Shown here: piece by piece, positions 11,359 to 27,131 of the stretch | Numbering within the stretch: position 1 is the first letter of the stretch | How the letters are laid out: each line of letters opens with the position of its first letter | NCBI GenBank assembly: GCA_018816735.1 | Contig: JAHIVH010000120.1 | Coordinates: 16,266-80,265, forward strand | Source of the DNA: Pseudomonadota bacterium | Lineage (GTDB): Bacteria; Desulfobacterota; Desulfobacteria; Desulfobacterales; JAHIVH01 | Length of the DNA: 64,000 nt | Direction of reading: 5' to 3' | Translations under genes and position numbers: made by a program | The notes under the pieces: model-generated | What the model saw: the letters and a program-made list of their open reading frames with translations, nothing else | Databases searched by the model: none | What the model was told of the DNA's origin: nothing

Positions 11359-12037
11359 AACGTCTCCTCCTTTTTTAAAAACATTAATCATACTGTCCGC
11401 AATCGAAACAGAATAAATTTGACCTTTCCAATCACATCTTGCCAGAGTTACAGGCTTAAAAAATAAACGGAAATAATTTTACGGATGTGTGTTTAGAAAA
11501 TGGTCATACAATTTTCTTCCGATCACGGTTGCCCTTTTAAAAAAGAGCAAGCACACGACTACCCAAAAACCTTGCACGTATTTATGTCATGCAGGAAAAA
11601 TGATCTAATTTAAATACAGAATACAGATATATGATATTCATTTATTGTTGAAACAAGATATTTACAAAAAATATATGAACGCTTAGCGTCCGGCAATACT
11701 TACTGCTGTTTGGATCGATACAGGAGTGAGAACTTCAGCCATCGGTGTTTAAACCCGCTTCAAAATATTTTATTTGCCCCGGATATCAATCAGGTACAGC
11801 AGTAAGTTTTGTTATTATGAGAGATATCATTTATTTTGAAGCTGCATTTTTAGTATGTAATTTCATCAAGATACGTTCTTTAATACCTGTAAAAAATCAA
11901 TTTAAATTTGCATAACATAGATTGATAGTTCAGATCAATAGTTTTACAATTTTTTTTTTATATCGGTCAGCGTTGATTTAATCAGTTATCTGATTTCTCC
12001 AGGCTGTTTTTCCTGATCAATGAGATTTCACTTGTCC

Positions 12038-12868
12038 TTAAAAAAATACACCTGAAAAAACAGCCAAAATGCCAATGGCCCAGCAGTAAAAGGCAAACAA
12101 GTGGAGTCGGCCTTTTTTGACGATCTTAAGCAGAACGCGCAGGGCCATATATCCGGTGATAAAAGCTGTTGCTGTTCCCACTGCCGTTAAACTGTTTATG
12201 TTAAAATCCGTTGAAAACCCGTCGATGAGTCCAATAAATTCAGCTGCCATGATTGCAGGCATACTTAAAAGGAATGAGTATCTGGCGGCTGTTTCTCGTT
12301 CAAGTCCCATAAAAAGCCCGGCTGCTATGGTTGAACCTGACCGCGAAATACCGGGCATGACGGCAAGTCCTTGAATGGTGCCGATGATAAACGCCTTTTT
12401 GGGTGAAACATCCTTGATCAGCAAATGGGTATCTGTTCGTTTTCTGGTAACCCATAATAATATACCGGTAATAATCAACATACATCCGACGACAGTTATG
12501 GATGAGAAAATTGTATCTGCATAATTTTTCAGGAATAAGCCAATAACCCCTGTGGGTATGGAGCCCAACACGATCAGATAGAACAGTCTGGCATCCGGAT
12601 CGGTTGCCAGGATATCAGACGTTTTTTCGTTTTTAAAAACAGACACCATCAACTTGAAAAATGCATTGATCATGCCCTTTATTTCCTTTAGGTAAATGAG
12701 GGCAACGGCAAGAAGCGTCCCCACATGGAGGCTGATATCGAAAAAGAGCTGCGGTTCACTTAATCCGAACAGATGTTGAAACAGGACCAGGTGGCCGGAG
12801 CTGCTCACCGGCAGAAATTCCGTGAGCCCTTGAATAATCCCTAAAATAACAGCCTGATACATTTCCAT
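12038..12868 (-). CDS. uppP: Undecaprenyl-diphosphatase UppP/BacA
   Basis: AVILGIIQGLTEFLPVSSSGHLVL and GLAVMPGISRSGSTIAAGLFMGL. Confidence 0.96.
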   Translation of the reverse strand: MEMYQAVILGIIQGLTEFLPVSSSGHLVLFQHLFGLSEPQLFFDISLHVGTLLAVALIYLKEIKGMINAFFKLMVSVFKNEKTSDILATDPDARLFYLIVLGSIPTGVIGLFLKNYADTIFSSITVVGCMLIITGILLWVTRKRTDTHLLIKDVSPKKAFIIGTIQGLAVMPGISRSGSTIAAGLFMGLERETAARYSFLLSMPAIMAAEFIGLIDGFSTDFNINSLTAVGTATAFITGYMALRVLLKIVKKGRLHLFAFYCWAIGILAVFSGVFF

Positions 12869-12882
12869 TATCGCCGATTTCC

Positions 12883-14847
12883 TTAGAGTATAATGTTTCC
12901 GGTCATGTGCGTATGATATCCGCCAAGGGCATTTACGCGTGCTTTAAATCGTTTCGTATTTATGGTTTCAATCAGTTTTTGCATATTGGGAGAATTGAAA
13001 AATTCGCCCGGTATAACGAGATCATACTGTTCGGTCACAACCGGAATAAAATCAAGGTTAAGCGCCTTTGCCGCCGCATAGATCCCCAAGCCCACATCCA
13101 CCCTGCCTGAAAGCACCGAGACAGCTACGGACATATGCGTATATTCTTCATCGGCATAGCCGATAATCGTTTCCGGATCAATTCCAAGTTGGGAAAGCTT
13201 GAAATCGAGAAGGATTCGTGTTCCGGAGCCTGCCTGCCGGTTCATGAACCGGATATCTCCCCTTGACAAATCCTCGATGCCTTTGATCTGTTTCGGATTA
13301 TGTTTGGGGATGATAAGGCCCTGATCTCTCATGACCAGATGGACAACATTCACGTGGACATCCTTCAGGTATTTTTTGATATAGGTCACGTTGTAACTGC
13401 CGTCATCCGCATCAAGAAGGTGAGACCCGGCCAGATGGCATACACCTTTTTTTAAAGCTATCAAGCCCCCCATACTTCCCACATGACTGGATGAAAGGCT
13501 TATCCCTGCATCCCTTCCAAGCTGATCAGAAAGAATGTCCAGGGTATTGTCATGGCTGCCGGCGACCACAAGTGTTTTGCGGATAGAGGATGCCGTTTTC
13601 AAAAGCGTTGCCCGGACAGGTGTCTCTGCTGTTAACCCTTCCACGTGGTTGGGTATACGGATGATGCCATCTGCCTGCGTGATGCTTGTGATAAAACCCG
13701 CTCCTCTGGGAAGCGGCGTGCATACGGTTTTATCGCCCACATGCCCGATTTTTATGCGCAAAAATTCTTCGACGCCGAGTTTGGATGGAATTTTCCGCGT
13801 AGGCGTCACGTCGATTTCAGGACGTTCCTGTTCCGGTTGTCCGGTCATGTTTAATAAAAGAGGTTCGGCGAACTGTTCAAAGGAAATGATGGCGGAAACC
13901 GGATATCCGGGAATACCGATAACGGGGATATGATTGATGTCGCCAAGGATAACCGGTTTTCCCGGCATGATGGTCACGCCATGGACGAGAATTTCACCCA
14001 GTTCCCCGATAACGTGGCTGGCAAAATCTTCTGATCCGGCGGAGGAACCGCCGATGATCAGAATCATATCCACGTCTTTTTTAGTAAATCCATCTACCGA
14101 TTTTTTAATGGTGTCAAGATCGTCTCCAACAATTTTGATACGTTCATATTCCCCACCGGCAGACCGGATGAGCCCCCCCAGTACGTAAGAGTTGCTTTCA
14201 ATGACCTTCCCGGGTTTGAGATCTAAAAGGTGTTTGTCCGGGTGAAGGTCCAAAAAACCGTCGACCAGCTCCGAGCCTGTAGGAATGACCAATACTCTGG
14301 GCTTTTTGTAAACCGGGACGGCGAAAATGCCTCCGGAAAGAAGGGCCCCCAGACAATAAGACGTGATTTTGTGGTTGCTTGGAAAAAGGAGTTCTGTAGC
14401 CACTATGTCTTCGCCCATTTTCCGGATATGCTGCCAGGGAAAGGCCGGGGCCTCAATTCTTATGGTATCTCCGGATATGACCTGGATATGTTCTATCATG
14501 ATGACGGCATTGCAATTTTCCGGTATCATATGACCGGTATTGACATAGAATGCATCTTTGCCGATCAAGAGATCTTTCGGTCGGTTTTCACCGGCGCCAA
14601 ATGTTTGGGCGGCGTTTACAGCGATGCCATCCATGGCTGCAGCGTGAAAATGGGGAGATGAAATTTTTGCCGAAACCGGTTCTGATAAAATCCTTCCCAC
14701 GGCATCCGGAACAGGAAGCATTTCAGTATCACAAATTTTTTTATTTGAAAATCGATCAAAGAGAATTTGCCTTGCCTCTTCAAGAGATTTCATTTTCAAG
14801 TAGATATTTCTTTTTGGACTCATGGCGTGTGCCTTATTGTTTTTCAA
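12883..14847 (-). CDS. MoeA-like molybdopterin biosynthesis protein with C-terminal PBP-like (substrate-binding) domain
   Basis: MoeA motifs AAAMDGIAV, NTGHMIPENCNAVIMIEH, GGSSAGSEDF, GKPVILG; C-terminal AGSHDNTLDIL...NRQAGSGTRILLD PBP-like domain. Confidence 0.92.
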   Translation of the reverse strand: MKNNKAHAMSPKRNIYLKMKSLEEARQILFDRFSNKKICDTEMLPVPDAVGRILSEPVSAKISSPHFHAAAMDGIAVNAAQTFGAGENRPKDLLIGKDAFYVNTGHMIPENCNAVIMIEHIQVISGDTIRIEAPAFPWQHIRKMGEDIVATELLFPSNHKITSYCLGALLSGGIFAVPVYKKPRVLVIPTGSELVDGFLDLHPDKHLLDLKPGKVIESNSYVLGGLIRSAGGEYERIKIVGDDLDTIKKSVDGFTKKDVDMILIIGGSSAGSEDFASHVIGELGEILVHGVTIMPGKPVILGDINHIPVIGIPGYPVSAIISFEQFAEPLLLNMTGQPEQERPEIDVTPTRKIPSKLGVEEFLRIKIGHVGDKTVCTPLPRGAGFITSITQADGIIRIPNHVEGLTAETPVRATLLKTASSIRKTLVVAGSHDNTLDILSDQLGRDAGISLSSSHVGSMGGLIALKKGVCHLAGSHLLDADDGSYNVTYIKKYLKDVHVNVVHLVMRDQGLIIPKHNPKQIKGIEDLSRGDIRFMNRQAGSGTRILLDFKLSQLGIDPETIIGYADEEYTHMSVAVSVLSGRVDVGLGIYAAAKALNLDFIPVVTEQYDLVIPGEFFNSPNMQKLIETINTKRFKARVNALGGYHTHMTGNIIL

Positions 14848-16076
14848 ACTAGTATGACCTGAACTTCGGTACCTTGTAACAGCCCTTCTTCATTCATCCC
14901 AACTTCGATCACACCGTCCGCCCGGATCATGGTGCTTATCAGGCCGGATTTGCCCAGAACAGGTTCTGCGTATGTGATGTTATCCCTGCGAACGAGTTTG
15001 ACCCGTGTATAATCTATCCTGCCCTGGGCAGATGAAATATTTCGCGTCAAAATGGCTTTTAAAGGAGGACCTTTTTGAAATGGATTTGAAATGCCTCGCA
15101 AATAGTCAAGACAAGGGCGGACGACGGTATTGAATACGATCATGGCAGATGTTACATGGCCGGGGATTCCCCAGATGAATTTATTTTCAGCCTTTGCCAG
15201 AATGGTCGGTTTTCCCGGGCTTATGGGGATGCCATGAACCAGGATGCTGGAATTTTTAAGGGCGGAGAGCGTCTCAATGGTTAAATCCCGTGTGCCCACA
15301 GAGCTTCCGCCTGAAATCAGGACCATGTCTGTTTCCTGGCATGCTTTTTCACATGCCTCAAAAAGGAGTTCGCGCTGGTCCCTGATAATGCCGTATGATT
15401 TGGGCGTACCGCCATATTTTTTCACAAGGCCCGACAGGGTGAAGGTATTCATATCCCGGATATATCCGCACGGCGGGATTTCGTTCACCGGGACCACTTC
15501 ATCTCCAGTCGAGATAATGCCGATCACCGGTTTCCGGTAAACCTGGACCGGATTATGCCCAAAAGCGGCAAGTGCGCCAGCTTCCTGCGGTCTTATCAAG
15601 GTCCCTTTTTCAAGAACGACCGTCCCTTTTCTGAAATCCTCACCTTTTTCAATAATGTTCTGGCCAGGGGCCATGCTTTTGAACGCTTCTACGGTCTCAT
15701 CATCGATGCTGTCCGTATGTTCGATCATAATGACGCTGTCTGCATTTTCAGGCAGCATGCCGCCTGTGGGAATTGGGGCGGCTTCTCCGGAACCGATCGA
15801 AAAATCCGGTTTCTCAGCCATGGAAACAGCGCCCTTAATGGTCAGGTAAGCAGGATTGCTTTCGCTTGCCCCGAATGTCGATGCAGCTTTGACCGCATAC
15901 CCATCCATGGTGGACCGGGAAAAGGGCGGCAGATCCATATCTGCTATAACATCAACGGCCAGAACCCTCCCTTGGGCACAAAAGAGATCAACCGGTTCCA
16001 TTTCTACCCGATCTGTCCCGGAAATCAGTTTCAGGACATCTTCAAGGGGGGTGACTTTAAAAAAATCTTTTATCAT
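14844..16076 (-). CDS. moeA: Molybdopterin molybdenumtransferase MoeA
   Basis: FSRSTMDGYAVKA, IPTGGMLPENADSVIMIEHT, GGSSVGTRDLT, GKPTILA; overlaps the downstream moeA-like gene by 4 nt. Confidence 0.94.
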   Translation of the reverse strand: MIKDFFKVTPLEDVLKLISGTDRVEMEPVDLFCAQGRVLAVDVIADMDLPPFSRSTMDGYAVKAASTFGASESNPAYLTIKGAVSMAEKPDFSIGSGEAAPIPTGGMLPENADSVIMIEHTDSIDDETVEAFKSMAPGQNIIEKGEDFRKGTVVLEKGTLIRPQEAGALAAFGHNPVQVYRKPVIGIISTGDEVVPVNEIPPCGYIRDMNTFTLSGLVKKYGGTPKSYGIIRDQRELLFEACEKACQETDMVLISGGSSVGTRDLTIETLSALKNSSILVHGIPISPGKPTILAKAENKFIWGIPGHVTSAMIVFNTVVRPCLDYLRGISNPFQKGPPLKAILTRNISSAQGRIDYTRVKLVRRDNITYAEPVLGKSGLISTMIRADGVIEVGMNEEGLLQGTEVQVILV

Positions 16077-16103
16077 AAGGGTTGTTTCGAATCATGCAGG
16101 CCA

Positions 16104-17327
16104 TCATTTCAGTGCTTTTCTGATTCGCTCCATGGCTCTTTTCACGTTTTCATAGCTGTTGAACGCACTGATCCGGATATAGCCCTGACCGCATTTCCCA
16201 AAACCCGCACCAGGAGTACAGACCACGCCTGCTTCTTTCAGGAGAAGATCAAAAAATGCCCAGGAATCTGTTTTGCCGTCTATCCAGATATACGGCGAAT
16301 TCTCGCCACCTGTCAGTTCATAGCCCATATCTGCAATTTCTTTTCTTATGAGCTGTGCATTTTTAAGGTAATAATCTGTCAGGCCTTTTACCTGTTTTTT
16401 TCCTTCCTCATTGTAAATCGCTTCTGCCGCTTTCTGAACCGGATATGAGACGCCGTTGAATTTTGTTGAATGTCTTCGGTTCCACAGGGCGTGGATCAGA
16501 TGGGCATTCCCCTTTGTATCCCAGGCCATGCAGGTTTTAGGCACAACCGTGTATGCGCATCGTGTGCCTGTGAAGCCGGCTGTCTTTGAGTAACTCCTGA
16601 ATTCAATGGCCACTTCGCGGGCCCCTTCAATCTCATATATCGATTTCGGCAAGTGTTCGTCCCGGATAAATGCCTCATAAGCTGCATCAAAAAGAATGAG
16701 CGCTTTTTCCTTTCGGGCATAATCCACCCAGGTTTTAAGCTGGTCTTTGGTAATTGTCGATCCGGTGGGATTATTGGGAAAACAGAGATAGATCAGATCG
16801 ACCGGCGTTTCCGGAAGTTCCGGAACAAAGCCGTTTTCCTTGGTGCTGTCCAGGTAAACGATATCCTCATATCGCCCGTCGCTGAAAAGGCCTGTCCGGC
16901 CTGCCATGACGTTGGTATCGAGGTATACCGGATACACCGGGTCGGGTATGGCAATTGTTATGTCGTTTGAAAAAATTTCCTGGATATTACCCGTATCGCA
17001 TTTCGCACCGTCGCTTACAAAAATTTCATCCGGAGAAATATCGGCGCCTCTTTTCTGAAAATCTTCCGCAGCTATTTTCTCCCTTAAAAACGCATATCCC
17101 TGTTCCGGACCATAGCCCCTGAATGTGGCATCTTCCGCCATTTCAGCCACACCTTTCCGAAACGCTTCTATACAGGCATCTGGGAGCGCTCTTGTGACGT
17201 CTCCAATACCCAGCTTGATCACTTCTTTGGTTGGATTGTCTTTCTGATATGCGGTCACGCGCTTGGCAATGTCCGAGAACAGGTATGATGCCTGAAGTTT
17301 TAAATAGTTTTCATTGATTTTGATCAT
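16104..17327 (-). CDS. dapL: LL-diaminopimelate aminotransferase DapL
   Basis: [54 protein letters not shown] (PLP lysine region). Confidence 0.95.
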
Positions 17328-17654
17328 GAATCTTCCTCTGTCAATTTAAAAATATGGACGCTTTTTAGCTCCTGATTGTTTACCTTACGGGTAATACTCG
17401 AAAATTCCAGTATGAGTCAAGAGGGGATTCTGTATATTCCACTCAGCCAAGTTCAATTGAAAGTCTTACCATTCGATTTTTGATAAAAAGTCACCATCAT
17501 CTTGGATGAAACTGCAGCAAGAATGGTTAAATGGACCTTGACATTAAATGTCATTCTCTATAATTATCCTTAGTAAAACAAGATTCTTATCCTTAGGTAA
17601 ATAAATATTAACTGAAACTGAAATCTGCATTTTACATGACGGTTGTCTAATAAT

Positions 17655-18782
17655 ATGAATCATGAACCCAAATCCCCATCTCCAATTATTACCATTGGAA
17701 GTGGAAATATTGAGCACGTTTTAGAACTTGACGGTGAAATACATCTGGGGCGAAAGCATATTGTAAAATCCCATGAATTTTTAGGTGGAAGCTGTATTAA
17801 TTATTCTATACGACTTATGTCAATGGGTGAAATCGTTTATCCGATTCCTTTTATCGGTAAAGATAAATATGGCCGAGAAATCCAGAAAAAGTTGATAAGC
17901 ATCGGAAATAAATATGACCGATCCTCTACATGCGAAAATTTTATAAATTCAGAAGATTTTTTTGTCCCAACCATTCAGACGCCTAAAGCAACGATAATGG
18001 TTCATAAAGGACAGCGAACTATTTTTTCGCAGGGCTTGACGCAAACCGGCGTATCAGTCGAACACATTGAAAAGCGCATTCGACGGTTGATTGAAAAGAT
18101 GCCAACCTGTTCGATCATGATCGGACATGTAACACCTGATATTGATGCCATGGCGCCAGGGGAAATCACAAAAAAAATAATCGATATATGTGATGATAGC
18201 CAACTCATTTATGCTAATTTGGGTAATGGGCAACTGGTTCACGGCGTGGATTTTTGGAAAAAAGATATGTGCCGTACCGATATCTTTCAGCTGAACATCG
18301 AAGAGATAAAACGATTTTTTTTGAAATCCGGCATGGATAATTCGCTCTACAACATTATCAAGTGGTTAAGAAAGAATTCCATTACAGCTGTCATCACATT
18401 GAATCGATTCGGTGCCGTTGGAACTTACAAAGACGGTCGCGATGGTATTGTTCTAGCATGGCCGCTTGATATCGGTGACATTATCGATCCGACAGGCGCG
18501 GGCGATGCCTTTGCTTCAGGGATGGTATCCTGCCTGAAAGGGAAAAAGTCATTTTCTTTTAATGAATTCGTATCTGCCATTGATATAGGACGATACTGGG
18601 CGTCTTATGCATGCAAAAGCCTTGGGGCATGCGCCGCCTGTCCGGATAAAAAGGCCATAGATGCATTTATCCAAAAACAAGCGCGATGCCATGATAACCT
18701 GATTATGGAAATCACAGAGGAAAACCATCCCAAACAGATCATGGATCTCATCGATAACGTGTATCAATTATCGATTTGTTAG
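17655..18782 (+). CDS. PfkB-family carbohydrate kinase
   Basis: C-terminal DPTGAGDAFASGMVSCL signature; ORF opens at 17643 (TTG), ATG at 17655. Confidence 0.88.
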   Translation: MNHEPKSPSPIITIGSGNIEHVLELDGEIHLGRKHIVKSHEFLGGSCINYSIRLMSMGEIVYPIPFIGKDKYGREIQKKLISIGNKYDRSSTCENFINSEDFFVPTIQTPKATIMVHKGQRTIFSQGLTQTGVSVEHIEKRIRRLIEKMPTCSIMIGHVTPDIDAMAPGEITKKIIDICDDSQLIYANLGNGQLVHGVDFWKKDMCRTDIFQLNIEEIKRFFLKSGMDNSLYNIIKWLRKNSITAVITLNRFGAVGTYKDGRDGIVLAWPLDIGDIIDPTGAGDAFASGMVSCLKGKKSFSFNEFVSAIDIGRYWASYACKSLGACAACPDKKAIDAFIQKQARCHDNLIMEITEENHPKQIMDLIDNVYQLSIC

Positions 18783-19033
18783 ATATTTGGATTCCATATA
18801 ACCCATCTAATCTGGAGGAATTACAAAAAAAATTAATTTTGGCAATTAAGGAAATTTATAAATAGCATGCATGATTTATCAAATTGAATATTTTAGCTTG
18901 ACTATGATTGCCCAATTCAGGAATAATATCCGTTTATTCAAACTATTAAAAAGTTTGATCTTATGTGGATAGAAAAAAAGAAAGGAACCCCATAGTCCTG
19001 TTCTTTAAAGATTGAAAATATATAACAAGCCGG

Positions 19034-19894
19034 TTGGCAGAAATGGAAAAAATGAAAACAGCAGCTCTTTTTGACGTTGACGGTACCTTGACCCCTCCCA
19101 GACAACCGATCACGGAATCCATGGTCAGGATAATCGATCGTCTTTGCGTTCCTTTCAGTGTTGCGGCCGGCAGCCACCTCCCGCTTCTGAAAAAACAATT
19201 CTTTGAACCTCTGTTTCAATATGGGTACAGAAAAAAGTTCAACGCATTTCTGAGTAATGGTGCCATTCAGTATTTGTGCGATTTTTCAGAAGGACTATCG
19301 GTTCTGCCGGTAAAGTCTTTCAATATCCGTGAGTTTTTGGGAGAAAGCGATTACCGCTTTTTGATAGACACGCTCGAAAAAACCCTTGACCTTTCGGAGT
19401 TCAAGCTTCCCGGTTCGCTTAAGGTGTTTGATAACACGATTGTATTTCGTGACTCAATGGTCAATTTTGTACCTATCGGCCGGCTTAAGGTTGAAGGGCC
19501 GGAAGCGCAAACCAATCGGAATAATTTTGTCGCCTTTGACAACAAAGACCGGAAAAATGGATACAGGCTCGACGTGATGGCACATCTGAACAGAGAACTG
19601 GCCCCGCTTATTGAAAAAAAAGGATTGAAAATAACGTTGGGGGGCCAGACGTCATTTGACATCGGTATTGTTGGAAAGGATAAGACCAATGCGGTGACGA
19701 CGTTATTTGAGAGCGGTGTTGAGCGTGTCGTCTTTTTTGGAGATGCCTTGTTTGAAGGCGGGAACGATTATGCCATACGTGAATTCGAAAAAACATGGCC
19801 TGCCGATTCTCCGCATAAAATTGAGACTGTTCACGTGCATTCATACAAGGACACAATTGATCAACTTCGCCAGTTTGGTTTTCTTTTCGAATAA
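19034..19894 (+). CDS. HAD-superfamily phosphomannomutase of eukaryotic PMM type
   Basis: ALFDVDGTLTPPRQPIT and VFFGDALFEGGNDYAI, both typical of eukaryotic-type PMM; start codon could be internal. Confidence 0.82.
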   Translation: MAEMEKMKTAALFDVDGTLTPPRQPITESMVRIIDRLCVPFSVAAGSHLPLLKKQFFEPLFQYGYRKKFNAFLSNGAIQYLCDFSEGLSVLPVKSFNIREFLGESDYRFLIDTLEKTLDLSEFKLPGSLKVFDNTIVFRDSMVNFVPIGRLKVEGPEAQTNRNNFVAFDNKDRKNGYRLDVMAHLNRELAPLIEKKGLKITLGGQTSFDIGIVGKDKTNAVTTLFESGVERVVFFGDALFEGGNDYAIREFEKTWPADSPHKIETVHVHSYKDTIDQLRQFGFLFE

Positions 19895-19915
19895 AACATC
19901 TGAAGAGGAATTTTA

Positions 19916-21877
19916 ATGAAACCGAATCATGTAACAATCAATCCATCAGCAACCAAGAACGAATCCCTTGAGATTAATGACGAACTCGTTAACGCCTATT
20001 CATTGGAAAAGTGGGCTCGCGATTTTAATCTGATGACCGCAGGTTATCGGGACCAACTGGATCCGGATGATATTCTAAATCCAGAGGTGCCAGTCAATTT
20101 GGTCACCATGGTTATTTTAGGGGAAGCCAAGGCCCGTGTTTTTAAGAGAAAAACAAAAGATCCGGGTGCATTGCATGTTCATATCGGCGGGGAAACCCGT
20201 CCCCATACCCAGGATTTTATCAAGCTATTGTCCCGCGTGTATGCGGCGAACGGTTTCTATGTGCACTTGCGGTCCATGATTTTAACGACGCCGATCTGGT
20301 ATTCCTCTTTCGGGGTTTTTTATGAAGACTTCCAAAGTGGCGATAATCTGACGGCCAGTCATTCCCAGTATTTTAAAGGGGGATGGAAGCCATTAGATTC
20401 ATTTGGGAAGCAACTTGTTGAAGAAGAATCGGACATTATAAAAGAGGTGAACCATATTGTTGAATCCAGGGCGACTATCCAGCTTGCCCCTATGTCGGAT
20501 GCAAAGATATTGCATGATTTTGATGTGGACGATGCCTATATCCGGTATCAAAAAACAGTTGTTGATGAACAATCGATCAATGAGATAAAAAAGGCCAGCA
20601 AGCAGGGATTCCGATGCTCAATCTGTACGGTTGGGGGATCGATGAAAAAAACATCGGAAAAACTGTTCCAGGGGTTTGGTATATCTACAGGCCCGGATGG
20701 CATCATTCAATACTTTCTTGACGATGAAGATTCCCAATATCACGGTATCGGCCAGATCAATGGCGAGAACTATGGTGTGGACCCGACCAAAAAGGAAATC
20801 TACCGCAATATCGGCGCCCAGGAAAAATTAATTAAAGGTGAGGCAGCGGTCATTTTTATATGGGATCCGGATGGCGATCGCTTTAATATGGTGACCACCG
20901 CATCAAAACGGAATATCGACAGATTTAAAAGCCTGGGTTTGGAAGTTGAACAGCAGGACAAAACAGATAAATGCATTGTTTATTTCACACCGAATCAAAT
21001 TTTTTTTATGTTGGTTGCCTACCGGATGAGTGCGTTAAAACGGGATGGCAGTATAGGGGCTTACGATTGGTTTATCGCCTCTTCGGTAACGACTTCCAGA
21101 GCATTGGATGAACTGGCCGAAAAGGAAAATTTCCCCATTGTGCACGTGCGTGTCGGTTTCAAACACTGGGGAACCTTTGCCCATTGGCTTGAAAGCAGGA
21201 AGGATGCGGATGAACCCTATATAACGGCCTTGGGAGATCGCGTGGCAATCGGGAAAAAACCCCGGTTAATTCTAATGTGCGAGGAGTCCGGTGGCGCTAT
21301 TTTCGGTGGTAATGAATTCCTGATGAATAAGTTGTCTTCAAATGCAATTATTGCAATGAGGGAGAAAGACGCATTCCAATTCGGGTTGTTATCCCTATCT
21401 CTGGGTGCCTTTCTATATAACTCGAGCCAGTCGTTTGCTGATTATTATTGTGACCTGATAGAAAAGTATAATATTCGAAATCGTTTTTTCAAACGATATG
21501 ATAAGCGTCTTTATGATGAAAGTTTGTCAGGTGCGGTTCGGGAGAACGCCAAAAAAATTGGAGAAGCAAAGCGGGACCGGATTATGAAATATTTTCATGA
21601 TTTGGCTGTAAACTATTCTTCACACATGGATTTGGATGAAGCTCGAAAAGAAATTCACGCCAAATGCCCCCCAAATAGTCGAAATCTCCCTTCTATCAAA
21701 AAAATTAGTCTTATTGGAAAGGGTGGCTTACTTGAAGGGACGTTTATTCAATTTGACACGTTCTGGCTGGTTATCCGGTCCTCCGGGACAGACGCAGTGT
21801 TAAGATATTATATGAACGGCGAAAATAAGGAAGAAATGGATTCTGTTCAAAACACGATAATGAATCTGGATATTTAA
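19916..21877 (+). CDS. Phosphoglucomutase/phosphomannomutase-like alpha-D-phosphohexomutase, divergent
   Basis: Metal loop IWDPDGDRFNMV, sugar loop CEESGGAIFGG, variant phosphoserine loop LTASHSQYFKGGWK. Confidence 0.82.
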   Translation: MKPNHVTINPSATKNESLEINDELVNAYSLEKWARDFNLMTAGYRDQLDPDDILNPEVPVNLVTMVILGEAKARVFKRKTKDPGALHVHIGGETRPHTQDFIKLLSRVYAANGFYVHLRSMILTTPIWYSSFGVFYEDFQSGDNLTASHSQYFKGGWKPLDSFGKQLVEEESDIIKEVNHIVESRATIQLAPMSDAKILHDFDVDDAYIRYQKTVVDEQSINEIKKASKQGFRCSICTVGGSMKKTSEKLFQGFGISTGPDGIIQYFLDDEDSQYHGIGQINGENYGVDPTKKEIYRNIGAQEKLIKGEAAVIFIWDPDGDRFNMVTTASKRNIDRFKSLGLEVEQQDKTDKCIVYFTPNQIFFMLVAYRMSALKRDGSIGAYDWFIASSVTTSRALDELAEKENFPIVHVRVGFKHWGTFAHWLESRKDADEPYITALGDRVAIGKKPRLILMCEESGGAIFGGNEFLMNKLSSNAIIAMREKDAFQFGLLSLSLGAFLYNSSQSFADYYCDLIEKYNIRNRFFKRYDKRLYDESLSGAVRENAKKIGEAKRDRIMKYFHDLAVNYSSHMDLDEARKEIHAKCPPNSRNLPSIKKISLIGKGGLLEGTFIQFDTFWLVIRSSGTDAVLRYYMNGENKEEMDSVQNTIMNLDI

Positions 21878-21905
21878 TATTGACCAATTTTAATAGGACT
21901 TCATT

Positions 21906-22709
21906 TTGCCCAAAACACTTATCATTACGCATCCGGGGTCTGCCCATTTTGATGAATTCTTTGCGATTTCGCTTATTATTGCCATTAATGACGATGTTGA
22001 ATTTCATATCGACAGAAGAGATCCTGCGCCGGATGAACTGAAGAATCCAACGGTATGGGTAGTGGATATCGGGGGCGAATATAATCCTCACCTGAAGAAT
22101 TTTGATCACCATCAGAACCTGGAAATCCCGGCAAGTTTCATGATTGTCGCAGACTTTCTTGGTGTCTCGTCAAAATTAAGCGTGCTTCCCTGGTGGGCGT
22201 ATAAGGACAGAATTGACCGGTTCGGGCCTATCCGCGTCGGCGAAGACATGGGGACGGGTAATCTGGTGGCTACATACAGTCCTTTTGAAGAATGGTATCT
22301 GGAATATTTTTCCAAACAACCGGACGCATGCAGGGACGTCATGAAGGCATTTGGGAAATGTATACTGGAAAAGGCAGATGAGCTTTCTTCCGGAATTAAT
22401 TACTGGAAAAACGCAAAAAGGATACAGGTGAAACAAAAGACATGCCTTCTGGGTGAGACCAATGATCTGACAGGCGCTGAGGAGTATTTGACACGTGTGG
22501 GCATTCCTTTTTCAATAACCGTTTCCCACGATAAACGGGGCGAGGGATGGACATTGAAACGATATCATGATGACCCGGAGGTCGATTTTTCAAAGGTTTC
22601 TGATCACAAAGATATCAAGTTCGCCCATAAGGGCGGATTCATTGCCAAAACCCGGACACGACTGGCGCTTGACAAAGTGATTGAAATTGTTGACCTGGCC
22701 GTCAGTTAA
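21906..22709 (+). CDS. MYG1/UPF0160-like (DHH-related) phosphoesterase family protein
   Basis: THPGSAHFDEFFAISL, VVDIGGEYNPHLKNFDHHQ metal-binding pattern. Confidence 0.72.
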   Translation: MPKTLIITHPGSAHFDEFFAISLIIAINDDVEFHIDRRDPAPDELKNPTVWVVDIGGEYNPHLKNFDHHQNLEIPASFMIVADFLGVSSKLSVLPWWAYKDRIDRFGPIRVGEDMGTGNLVATYSPFEEWYLEYFSKQPDACRDVMKAFGKCILEKADELSSGINYWKNAKRIQVKQKTCLLGETNDLTGAEEYLTRVGIPFSITVSHDKRGEGWTLKRYHDDPEVDFSKVSDHKDIKFAHKGGFIAKTRTRLALDKVIEIVDLAVS

Positions 22710-22869
22710 TCGCGTATTTTCGCCTTGAAGTTGTGCCAAAATAGTGTTTGACTCTGATTTCTCAATGAACATATAATTACAATAATTTTAGAGTTGAATG
22801 AAGAAGAAAGACACATCTGAAACAACCAATTAGACCATTTAAAACCATTTCATATTGCCGTCAGGAGAC

Positions 22870-23442
22870 ATGATTATGCCAAAGGAATTGCAGAGAAAAA
22901 TAAATCTTGAGCAATTTAAGCTTATCAGCTATGCAATTTCAACCTATGAAGATCTGAATGTGTTAAATGCTCATATTGTTGAAAGCATATGCCGGTCCTT
23001 CAATGTCAAGGGATGCAGTATCTTTTTGTTTGATGAACACGAAAAACAACTGTTTCGCGTCAGTTCATATGGCATCAGTGAAGACTATCTGCAGAAAGGC
23101 CCGATCTATGCGGCTGATGCTCTGGAGGAATTTAAAACTGGTCAGCCGGTTCTTTTTACCGACTTTCAACATGACCCAAGGGTTCAGTACCCGGAAGCAG
23201 CAGCAAAGGAGGGAATCGTGGCCATGCTGTCGGTCCCCATCCGATGCAAATCCCACGTTCTGGGCTTGCTGAAAATATATCATTCGGAAAAATGGATTCT
23301 ACATAGTGAAGATCTGGAGTCTATTCGAATTCTCGCCGATCATCTGGGTCTCGTGATCGAAAATAACGGACTTAGAAATTTTCTTGAAGAAGTAAAAATG
23401 GCCATGAGAAGCCTTCCCAAGCGTCTTTCCCAAGGGCTTTAG
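22870..23442 (+). CDS. GAF domain protein
   Basis: NVKGCSIFLFDEHEKQLFRVSSYGIS, AMLSVPIRCKSHVLGLLKIYHSEK. Confidence 0.85.
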   Translation: MIMPKELQRKINLEQFKLISYAISTYEDLNVLNAHIVESICRSFNVKGCSIFLFDEHEKQLFRVSSYGISEDYLQKGPIYAADALEEFKTGQPVLFTDFQHDPRVQYPEAAAKEGIVAMLSVPIRCKSHVLGLLKIYHSEKWILHSEDLESIRILADHLGLVIENNGLRNFLEEVKMAMRSLPKRLSQGL

Positions 23443-23445
23443 TTT

Positions 23446-24360
23446 ATGCCAGGAAGAGTCGTTACAGATACATCTGATTTTTTTTCTATTGATTATGGTG
23501 ATGAGCTTAAGATCGGCAAAAAACGGTTCAGAATTATCGGGCATGCCAAGGAAAAACGATTTGGGGTGGAAGACCCTAAATTTTGGGTAAAAAGAGTGAT
23601 TGATCTCGATACCAATCAAAGCAAGATCGTCAAGCTGGTTTTTTATGAAAAATTTGTAACCAACCTGGGCGGTGTAAAGATAAACTGTTTCAGGAATCCT
23701 GATAAAGAAGGGAAAATTATCAAACTGGTAAAAAATCATCCCTATTTTATGCAGGGTGAGGAATACAGGGATGAAAAGTTAAATAATATCAGAGTGCTGG
23801 ATGTTGTGAGAGGTCATGATTTTTATGAGTACCTGGAAGGCCTTGAGATGGATTATCAGACATATTATCATACGAAGCTTTCCAATATTCTGAAACATTT
23901 GGTGAAAGCATTTGAGGCCATCCGGTTTCTGCATATTCATGGTTTCAGACATGGGGATATCAGGAATGATCACCTGATCATTCAAAATGAAACCGGAAAT
24001 TATGTGTGGATCGATTTTGATTATGATTACGAAGCACCGGAAAATCCCTTTGGGCTCGATCTTTTTGGCATGGGGAATATCTTGCTTTATTCAATTGGTA
24101 AAGGCTTCCATGTGATTTACGATATTGAAAGAAACCCGGACGTTTATGGTGATCTCGTCACAAGGCTGAAGCAGAGTGACATGTCGATTCTGGATAAAAG
24201 CAGGGTCATGAATCTTAGAAAAGTGTATCCATCCATTCCCAAAAAACTGAATGATATTCTGATGCATTTTTCGCGGGCAACCGATATTTATTATGAAAGT
24301 GCAGAGGAAATCATAGAAGATATCAACAGGTGCCTGTATTTGTGTTTCGACGAATTTTAA
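23446..24360 (+). CDS. Atypical protein kinase-like protein
   Basis: Kinase-like catalytic loop HGFRHGDIRNDHLII and metal motif WIDFDYDY; no clear glycine-rich loop. Confidence 0.75.
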   Translation: MPGRVVTDTSDFFSIDYGDELKIGKKRFRIIGHAKEKRFGVEDPKFWVKRVIDLDTNQSKIVKLVFYEKFVTNLGGVKINCFRNPDKEGKIIKLVKNHPYFMQGEEYRDEKLNNIRVLDVVRGHDFYEYLEGLEMDYQTYYHTKLSNILKHLVKAFEAIRFLHIHGFRHGDIRNDHLIIQNETGNYVWIDFDYDYEAPENPFGLDLFGMGNILLYSIGKGFHVIYDIERNPDVYGDLVTRLKQSDMSILDKSRVMNLRKVYPSIPKKLNDILMHFSRATDIYYESAEEIIEDINRCLYLCFDEF

Positions 24361-24448
24361 ATGGAAGTGGTTTTAATTTTAATTGTTTTTTCTTCAGGCT
24401 TTTTAGCATGTCCTATAAGAGAAAGAATACGCCTGGGAGGTATTTATT

Positions 24449-24895
24449 TTGAAGAATTCAATTATGATTGCGCTGAATGACTCATTAAGCTCAAGGGCTG
24501 TGATCGACTATATCTGCAATTTATCCCTGCGGCCGGAGGATGTCAGATTTACGCTTTTGCATATTTACCGGGAACCTTCTTCAGGTGAAGAACTGATGGG
24601 CCAAAAATATATGCGGAAGTTGCCTCTGAAATATCTGTCGATGCTTTCAAGTGTCAAGGAAAAGCTGGTTCAGGCAGGCTTTTTAAAGGACAATATTGAA
24701 GTGGCTTTAATTACAGATCCGTATGCCACCGTTGCAGACGGCATCATCGATCAGTTTAAGAAAAAGGATTACAGCATGGTGGTCGTGGGACGGAAAAGGA
24801 TGTCAAAAGCCGAGGAATTCGTCATGGGGGATGCGAGCATCAAGCTTGTAAGGGCGCTTGAAAGAACGGCCGTTATGGTGGTAAAGTTGAAATAA
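24449..24895 (+). CDS. Universal stress protein (UspA family)
   Basis: IMIALNDSLSSRAVIDYI, MVVVGRKRMSKAEEFVMGDASIKLVRALERTAVMVVK. Confidence 0.88.
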   Translation: MKNSIMIALNDSLSSRAVIDYICNLSLRPEDVRFTLLHIYREPSSGEELMGQKYMRKLPLKYLSMLSSVKEKLVQAGFLKDNIEVALITDPYATVADGIIDQFKKKDYSMVVVGRKRMSKAEEFVMGDASIKLVRALERTAVMVVKLK

Positions 24896-25053
24896 AAATA
24901 AAACATGGCATGGGAAAGAAACATTGCTTTTTACCAAACCGGTATTAGAATAAGCCGTTTGAATCCTGTATCACTTGTGGTTATTTTTTTATTTTGTACA
25001 TGCAATTTATTTATTTTATAAGTAAATATACTTAATACACTTTTTAAGGCTAA

Positions 25054-25410
<357 letters not shown>

Positions 25411-25446
25411 ACAGCGCGTATTTTTACTTCATCCAGGGTTTTTAAT

Positions 25447-26313
25447 TTGAGGCACGAGAACAATCCATTTGTCAGTGTGATTATCCCCACATACAATCGG
25501 GGATGGATTCTTAAAGACGCAGTTGATTCGGTTCTTTCACAGGATTATCCTCATTTTGAACTGATCGTTGTGGATGATGGGTCAACTGATGATACAAAAG
25601 ACATTCTAAACACATATGGTGCTGACATTCAGGTCCTCCGGCAATCAAACACCGGCGTCAGTGCTGCACGAAACAGAGGCATCCGGCATGCTTCAGGCGA
25701 GCTTGTCGCCTTTCTCGATTCTGATGACTCCTGGTTCAAGCGGAAATTATCGGATCAGGTTTCTTTTTTTAATCAAAATCCGGAAGCCCTTATCTGCCAG
25801 ACAGAAGAGATCTGGATCAGAAACGGCAAACGGGTGAATCCCCGAAAAATTCATAAAAAATTATCCGGCATAATATTTGAGCCTTCGCTTCATCTTTGCC
25901 TGGTCAGCCCATCTGCCGTGATGATGCGGCGCGAGTTTTTCGATAGAATCGGTTATTTTGATGAAACGCTTCCTGCCTGTGAGGACTATGATTTATGGTT
26001 ACGTGCGAGTGCCTCATACCCTGTCTATCTGATTGATGAGCCGTTGATTTCAAAACGGGGCGGGCATCCGGATCAGTTGTCAAAAGGTTGGGGGCTTGAT
26101 AAATACCGGATACTGTCCTTGAAAAAAATTATTGAAAGCGGTCTGCTTTCAGACGACCAGAAGAAAGCTGCTTTGCGAGTAATGAAAGAGAAAATTACGA
26201 TTTACGCCCAGGGGTGTCTCAAGCGGGGGAAGGCAGAGGAGGCTTCCGAGTACATGAAACTATATTCTGACAAAATCGAAACATGTATCATTGCCTATAG
26301 AGAGGTGACATGA
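25447..26313 (+). CDS. Glycosyltransferase family 2
   Basis: VSVIIPTYNRGWILKDAVDSVLSQDY, VDDGSTDDT, FLDSDDSW. Confidence 0.94.
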   Translation: MRHENNPFVSVIIPTYNRGWILKDAVDSVLSQDYPHFELIVVDDGSTDDTKDILNTYGADIQVLRQSNTGVSAARNRGIRHASGELVAFLDSDDSWFKRKLSDQVSFFNQNPEALICQTEEIWIRNGKRVNPRKIHKKLSGIIFEPSLHLCLVSPSAVMMRREFFDRIGYFDETLPACEDYDLWLRASASYPVYLIDEPLISKRGGHPDQLSKGWGLDKYRILSLKKIIESGLLSDDQKKAALRVMKEKITIYAQGCLKRGKAEEASEYMKLYSDKIETCIIAYREVT

Positions 26314-27131
26314 AAGAATTGAAAGGAAAAGTTGCAGCCGTAACAGGGGCGGGATCGGGAATCGGAAGAGCGCTTGCGGAAAATCTGGCAGGAGAAGGGT
26401 GCCATTTGGCGTTGTCGGATATAGACGAAAAGGGCCTTATAGAAACCGTGGGTATGCTTGAGAAATATCATGTGAAAGTGACCCGTCATATTGTGGATGT
26501 ATCTGACAGGGAAAAAATGGATAGATATGCAGCAGACGCCGCATCTGCTCATGGCCAGGTCGATATGATCATCAATAATGCCGGCGTTACAATTGTGACA
26601 TCTGTTCCCGGGGTTTCCTACGACGATTTTGAATGGCTTATGAATATCAATTTCTGGGGAGTCGTCTATGGTACCAAAGCATTTCTGCCTTACCTTCAGA
26701 AACAGCCTGAAGGCCATGTCGTCAATATTTCCAGTATCAATGGCATACTCACCTGGCCAAATCACAGCCCATACTGTTCGGCCAAATTCGCCGTCAAAGG
26801 CTTTACAGAAGTCCTGCTTCAGGAAATGGACGGCACGTCTGTTCGTGTTTCATGCGTTCATCCTGGCGGTATAAAAACCAATATTGCCAGGAATTCACGT
26901 TTCTATGAAAGTGCCAATAAAGAACTGGATAAGGATGGTACGGTTAAACTTTTTGATAAACTGGCCATGACAACGGCTGACAAGGCTGCCCAAATTATCA
27001 TTCAGGGGATCAAGAAAAACAAACGCCGCATTATGGTCGGCATGGACGCCAAAATCATGGACTGGCTGACACGGCTTTTCCCTCTTGCCACTGTAAAACT
27101 CATGGGGATTGTCACTAAAAAAGCGAAGTAG
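26310..27131 (+). CDS. Short-chain dehydrogenase/reductase
   Basis: VTGAGSGIGRALA, NNAGVT, active site SPYCSAKFAVKG; overlaps upstream ORF by 4 nt. Confidence 0.94.
   Translation: MKELKGKVAAVTGAGSGIGRALAENLAGEGCHLALSDIDEKGLIETVGMLEKYHVKVTRHIVDVSDREKMDRYAADAASAHGQVDMIINNAGVTIVTSVPGVSYDDFEWLMNINFWGVVYGTKAFLPYLQKQPEGHVVNISSINGILTWPNHSPYCSAKFAVKGFTEVLLQEMDGTSVRVSCVHPGGIKTNIARNSRFYESANKELDKDGTVKLFDKLAMTTADKAAQIIIQGIKKNKRRIMVGMDAKIMDWLTRLFPLATVKLMGIVTKKAK

Follow-up and report, generated by a model that had tools for sequence, protein, structure and literature searches.

Based on the gene content of a 64,000-nucleotide stretch of a Desulfobacterales genome (contig JAHIVH010000120.1, positions 16,266 to 80,265; hereafter the window), we propose, with a probability of roughly 70%, that two adjacent genes supply the function of the bacterial bifunctional phosphomannomutase/phosphoglucomutase (PMM/PGM) and have replaced that enzyme. 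They encode a eukaryotic-type, HAD-fold phosphomannomutase (PMM) and a divergent alpha-phosphohexomutase (MUT). PMM/PGM handles mannose and glucose phosphates alike. The pair is taken to do this ordinary job because the usual gene has been lost, because a deletion scar of it persists in the window, and because the pair stands in its place beside uppP in a related genome; the same observations argue against the suggestion of the first-pass annotation that the locus encodes a dedicated pathway for an unusual hexose phosphate. A literature search found no account of such a PMM/PGM displacement.

The first-pass annotation had described four same-strand genes at 17643-22709 (PfkB-like, PMM, MUT and MYG1-like), all of which are present there, with Pfam matches that agree:

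17643-18782, + strand: PfkB-family sugar kinase; PF00294 match, GAGD anion-hole motif intact; internal ATG at 17655
19034-19894, + strand: PMM, eukaryotic-type (HAD-fold) phosphomannomutase; PF03332, AlphaFold model and PMM2 active-site residues
19916-21877, + strand: MUT, 653-residue alpha-phosphohexomutase; altered superfamily loops and fold; immediately follows PMM in 5 genomes
21906-22709, + strand: MYG1-like protein, outside the unit; opens a conserved block of its own at 21906-27131

The Pfam E-values were 4.5e-11 for PfkB, 4.8e-19 for PMM (PF03332), 7.6e-9 for the PGM_PMM_I domain of MUT (with weaker matches to domains III and IV) and 1.4e-13 for MYG1_exonuc. PMM and MUT are separated by 21 bp, MUT and MYG1 by 28 bp, and PfkB and PMM by 251 bp. 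The four genes do not make one pathway; the unit is PMM and MUT. The interval at 17.4-21.9 kb is bordered by two blocks that also occur in a congeneric genome (G001), there on separate contigs, and the three-gene insert of PfkB, PMM and MUT was not found in the portion of that assembly that was compared (65% complete).

Among 84,980 species genomes scanned, 29 MUT loci were found. In five genomes belonging to three phyla, MUT immediately follows PMM on the same strand: the window's own genome, G149 and G381, which are of Desulfobacterales type, G390 (Ca. Desantisbacteria) and G391 (Acidobacteria). The gaps between the two genes are 21, 33, 16, 106 and 63 bp, respectively. Pairwise identities of PMM and MUT co-vary among these genomes (r = 0.95, ten mutually dependent pairs), and the PMM-linked MUTs form a single clade inside the MUT family with a support of 98/100. 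About 20 remoter MUTs are 38-45% identical to the window protein over the full length. No PMM was found in those of their genomes that the scan reached, nor in G064, G137 and G160, and at least 12 of the remoter-MUT genomes retain a CpsG/PgmG-type enzyme. The reverse case is G036, which has PMM without MUT; it encodes GlmM and a glucose-specific Pgm, and no PMM/PGM was found in it.

Background genomes of the order mostly hold two or more phosphohexomutases. Among the pair genomes, that of the window (94.5% complete), G149 (99%), G381 (98%) and G391 contain only GlmM and MUT, with no ordinary PMM/PGM, while in G390 MUT is accompanied by a nucleotidyltransferase that carries a degenerate mutase domain as a fusion, with no other PMM/PGM. 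This fusion (L185:1217-3664) is 815 residues long and its phosphohexomutase domain lacks the serine and metal loops. Most of the genomes are metagenome assemblies, and the absence is safest for the window's genome, given the scar, and for G149, given its completeness. The ordinary enzyme has a preferred place: in 14 of 20 loci (14 families), all chosen for carrying a PMM/PGM-type enzyme, the PgmG-like gene adjoins uppP or a moeA-PBP fusion. In a second genus, g107, the PMM-MUT pair lies 3' of uppP in convergent orientation in G149, and in G249 and G285 MUT is found there at a contig end; G023, of the same family as g107, has PMM/PGM at that uppP-side position. No PMM/PGM remnant was found in the 1.45-kb gap of G149.

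Such a remnant is present in the window, next to the corresponding block:

11515-11729, - strand: a second stretch of downstream flank from the lost PMM/PGM; 71% identity to the congener, 222 alignment columns, E = 1e-19
11856-11997, - strand: deletion scar of the ordinary PMM/PGM, with its final 18 codons (11944-11997, a stop among them) and 3' flank; just 3' of uppP
12038-17327, - strand: uppP, moeA-PBP fusion, moeA and LL-DAP aminotransferase; in the order, PMM/PGM is kept next to this block

The congener retains PMM/PGM as a 466-aa protein (525 bits against the PgmG model) encoded 10 bp behind moeA-PBP. The DNA alignment between window and congener is unbroken from 17428 to 12897 and picks up again at 11987-11856 and 11729-11515; between the aligned parts the window has uppP and lacks the body of PMM/PGM. 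The 134-bp scar is 74% identical to the 3' end of the congener gene (E = 2e-17), with an alignment score of 64 as compared to a maximum of 18 among 500 shuffles. Its last codons read EIR, a stop, LIKSTLTDIKKKL and a final stop, the congener counterpart being EIQQLVESTLSDIKKNM followed by a stop. At the protein level, the match of 23.1 bits was reached anywhere by 24 of 300 shuffles and by none at the C-terminal end, which is unconvincing alone. It is the DNA match to the congener that identifies 11856-11997 as the deletion scar of the PMM/PGM gene.

The window PMM scores 69.5 bits against PF03332 (gathering score 22.4). Its start is more likely the ATG at 19043 or 19052 than position 19034, as relatives begin with M(K/E)T. 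The eukaryotic-type motifs claimed for it, FDVDGTLTPPRQ and GGND, are both there. Its AlphaFold model (pLDDT 92) finds eukaryotic PMMs as the top PDB matches (E = 2e-21 to 1e-16); the bacterial PgmH 4bnd ranks below them. In an alignment of six bacterial and two viral-contig sequences with human PMM2, D14, D16, R139, R150, R162, D216, K217, D237 and G243-N244-D245 are invariant; these include the two catalytic Asp (nucleophile and general acid), the three Arg that contact substrate, and GGND. PMM shares with eukaryotic PMM2 and PMM1 the fold, the catalytic Asp pair, TPPRQ, PIGR, GGQ.SFD and GGND, at about 28-30% identity in structural alignment; in contrast to them it is bacterial, is linked to MUT, has a longer cap with insertions and lacks the PMM1 residues of the inosine monophosphate (IMP) site. 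Exchange of M186, N218 and E219 of PMM1 for the PMM2 residues abolishes IMP control (PMC5736207). The corresponding residues here are Q205, D237 and A238, PMM2-like at two positions and alanine at the third; with the IMP-switch residues absent, we rejected an IMP switch of the PMM1 type, and the protein does not match the human IMP-regulated bisphosphatase in this respect. A recent transfer from a eukaryote is unlikely given the low identity and the separate bacterial clade. A precedent for a HAD-fold enzyme of PMM type in a bacterium is PgmH of Lactococcus lactis, described in its title as an essential alpha-phosphoglucomutase unrelated to alpha-phosphohexomutases (Neves 2006, cited in PMC9537760); the window PMM is only about 22% identical to it, is nearer to eukaryotic PMM, and is paired with MUT.

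In the PMMs of G149 (L051:10499-11338, DIDNTLTPP) and G036 (L010:1495-2325, DIDNTITPP), asparagine replaces the glycine of the HAD motif DxDGT; in L066 the residue is serine. A phage origin was discarded, as no match was found in the phage collection and only remote relatives occur, in four IMG/VR contigs. IMG/VR viral contigs (L092:7974-8810 and L093:7989-9023) encode PMM-type proteins with TLTPPRQP that are 28-31% identical to the window PMM. A remote bacterial relative, whose setting counts in favor of the proposed role, adjoins a mannose-6-phosphate isomerase, near a sugar-phosphate nucleotidyltransferase, on a Novosphingobium plasmid (NZ_CP030355.1, L221:5596-9768), where it is annotated only as 'HAD-IIB hydrolase' and a transposase lies in between. 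Six other sphingomonad plasmids carry proteins similar to it.

MUT has all four superfamily loops in altered form: the active-site serine loop TASHS (146-150), the DxDxDR metal loop (DPDGDRF), the sugar loop (EESGGA) and the RxSGT phosphate loop (RSSGTDAVLR). T146 to S150 are invariant in 27 sequences, with the canonical N replaced by S. The EES motif is common to Pgm (GEESAG), unlike CpsG (GEMSAH) and GlmM (GEDSGH). For the MUT model (pLDDT 90), the best Foldseek match was a Salmonella-type Pgm (E = 9e-24, TMt 0.74). The earlier claim that the two mutases differ in fold therefore stands, the PMM model resembling eukaryotic PMMs and the MUT model phosphoglucomutases. No curated NCBIfam subfamily (GlmM, PgmG, CpsG, Pgm) fits MUT, with a best score of 48.5 bits as compared to a cut-off of 439, and a plasmid search returned only two remote phospho-sugar mutases. 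In the tree, the MUT family stands apart from GlmM, PMM/PGM, Pgm and the PGM2 type, with its position among them blurred by long branches. MUT apparently represents an alpha-phosphohexomutase subfamily not described so far. The bifunctional PMM/PGM of the PgmG/CpsG/AlgC type, whose usual uppP/moeA place in the order is deleted here, would have the same job as the pair; it is a single enzyme of 450 residues, whereas MUT has about 650, stands on a separate branch with other sugar and phosphate loops, and is encoded beside a HAD-fold PMM. MUT also shares its superfamily with the glucose-1,6-bisphosphate synthase Slr1334 (cd05800). A protein with an EESGG motif (L195), which we take to be possibly cd05800-like, showed no supported grouping with MUT in the tree.

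For the proposed division of labor, PMM would interconvert mannose-6-phosphate and mannose-1-phosphate, and MUT, whose EES-GG sugar loop resembles that of glucose-specific enzymes, would interconvert glucose-6-phosphate and glucose-1-phosphate. The products could feed ordinary sugar-nucleotide synthesis, as with PMM and PGM in eukaryotes, and the PfkB kinase might provide hexose phosphate or prime the mutases. The mannose/glucose split fits because PMM/PGM is replaced by PMM and a second mutase, and because G036 combines PMM with a glucose-specific Pgm; we consider it slightly better than an even bet. Several points weigh against this interpretation. Glucose phosphates are also substrates of eukaryotic PMM1 (PMC5736207), and the split may differ from that drawn here. 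The SGTDAVLR phosphate loop (as opposed to SGTEPxxR) and the long branch of MUT make its substrate assignment tentative. The scar evidence is limited to the window's genus, and within the window about 7-8 kb lie between the pair and the scar. The locus has also been rearranged, since moeA-PBP and PMM/PGM are not separated by uppP in the congener. Assemblies are mostly 77-99% complete or of unlisted completeness, which makes single absences weak. If the displacement is correct, a central bacterial enzyme has apparently been swapped for a eukaryote-style set of two, with the swap visible as a scar between two congeneric species, and bacterial HAD-type PMMs, some of them annotated only as 'HAD-IIB family hydrolase', gain a probable role.

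The PfkB-like kinase scores 43.1 bits against PF00294 (cut-off 25.8) and has the motif DPTGAGDAF; it reached no NCBIfam equivalog cut-off. G381 has a homolog at a distance of 2.4 kb from PMM, and G149 and G285 have one elsewhere in the genome; none was found in G390 and G391. Of 390 genomes of the order, 10 have a homolog, and MUT is present in four of these 10. The homolog of G353 (L114:7872-10364) is 30 bp from a PMM/PGM-type mutase, and that of G375 (L112:7761-9373) adjoins the end of a PGM2-type mutase. This kinase subfamily thus recurs beside phosphohexomutases of several kinds, and the kinase is a probable, looser partner of PMM-MUT. The conserved linkage looked for among the four genes accordingly holds for PMM-MUT and, as a tendency of PfkB to accompany phosphohexomutases, for the kinase, while MYG1 is separate.

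Among the alternatives, the one that survives best, although improbable, is activator control, in which MUT or PfkB would make glucose- or mannose-1,6-bisphosphate that primes phosphohexomutases and PMM would remove it, like mammalian PGM2L1 and PMM1. The pairing of two folds and the recurrence of PfkB beside phosphohexomutases fit this scheme, and Slr1334, a bacterial glucose-1,6-bisphosphate synthase, belongs to the alpha-phosphohexomutases as well (PMC9426568). However, the IMP-control residues of PMM1 are PMM2-like at two sites and of neither type at the third, the pair stands in for the ordinary PMM/PGM and does not accompany it, and G390 and G391 yielded no PfkB homolog. We regard it as a shade less probable again that these genes together run a hexose-1,6-bisphosphate cycle (PfkB or MUT making, the PMM1-like HAD enzyme removing), as a bacterial counterpart of mammalian PGM2L1/PMM1. 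The authors of the Slr1334 study left a bacterial PMM1-like phosphatase as an open question (PMC9426568), which becomes directly testable here.

A route joining the kinase, two mutases and MYG1 toward an unusual hexose phosphate or sugar nucleotide is more doubtful still. The presence of three sugar-phosphate enzymes among four genes on one strand would suit it, as would the NAD-dependent epimerase that adjoins PMM in G381; yet no shared sugar-nucleotide gene was found around the pair at the other pair loci, the genome-wide loss of the ordinary enzyme suggests a housekeeping role, and MYG1 was rejected as a pathway member, being unlinked to the mutases in relatives and heading another block in the congener. 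That unrelated mutase genes are held together by shared ancestry or transfer, with no functional link, is the least credible option, since the occurrence in only five genomes and the solitary PMM of G036 are set against a gene order and close spacing that recur across three phyla, co-divergence, a single clade of PMM-linked MUTs and their joint association with PMM/PGM loss.

In addition to PMM/PGM displacement, the analysis characterized the blocks on either side. The MYG1-like protein matches PF03690 only at residues 6-71 (model positions 2-65 of 318), short of the full-length domain. Of the 390 genomes from the order, 26 have MYG1, and only the window's genome is also among those with MUT or PMM. 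The series MYG1-GAF-kinase-Usp-PII-GT2-SDR (21906-27131) is collinear with the congener (L058) at 66-91% protein identity, and other genes, without mutases, lie upstream of it there. The short MYG1-like protein stands at the head of this conserved group of genes for regulation and stress. On the other side, 12883-16076 holds two adjacent MoeA paralogs, one of 654 residues with an extra C-terminal substrate-binding-like domain; the paralog pair is kept beside uppP and PMM/PGM across the order.

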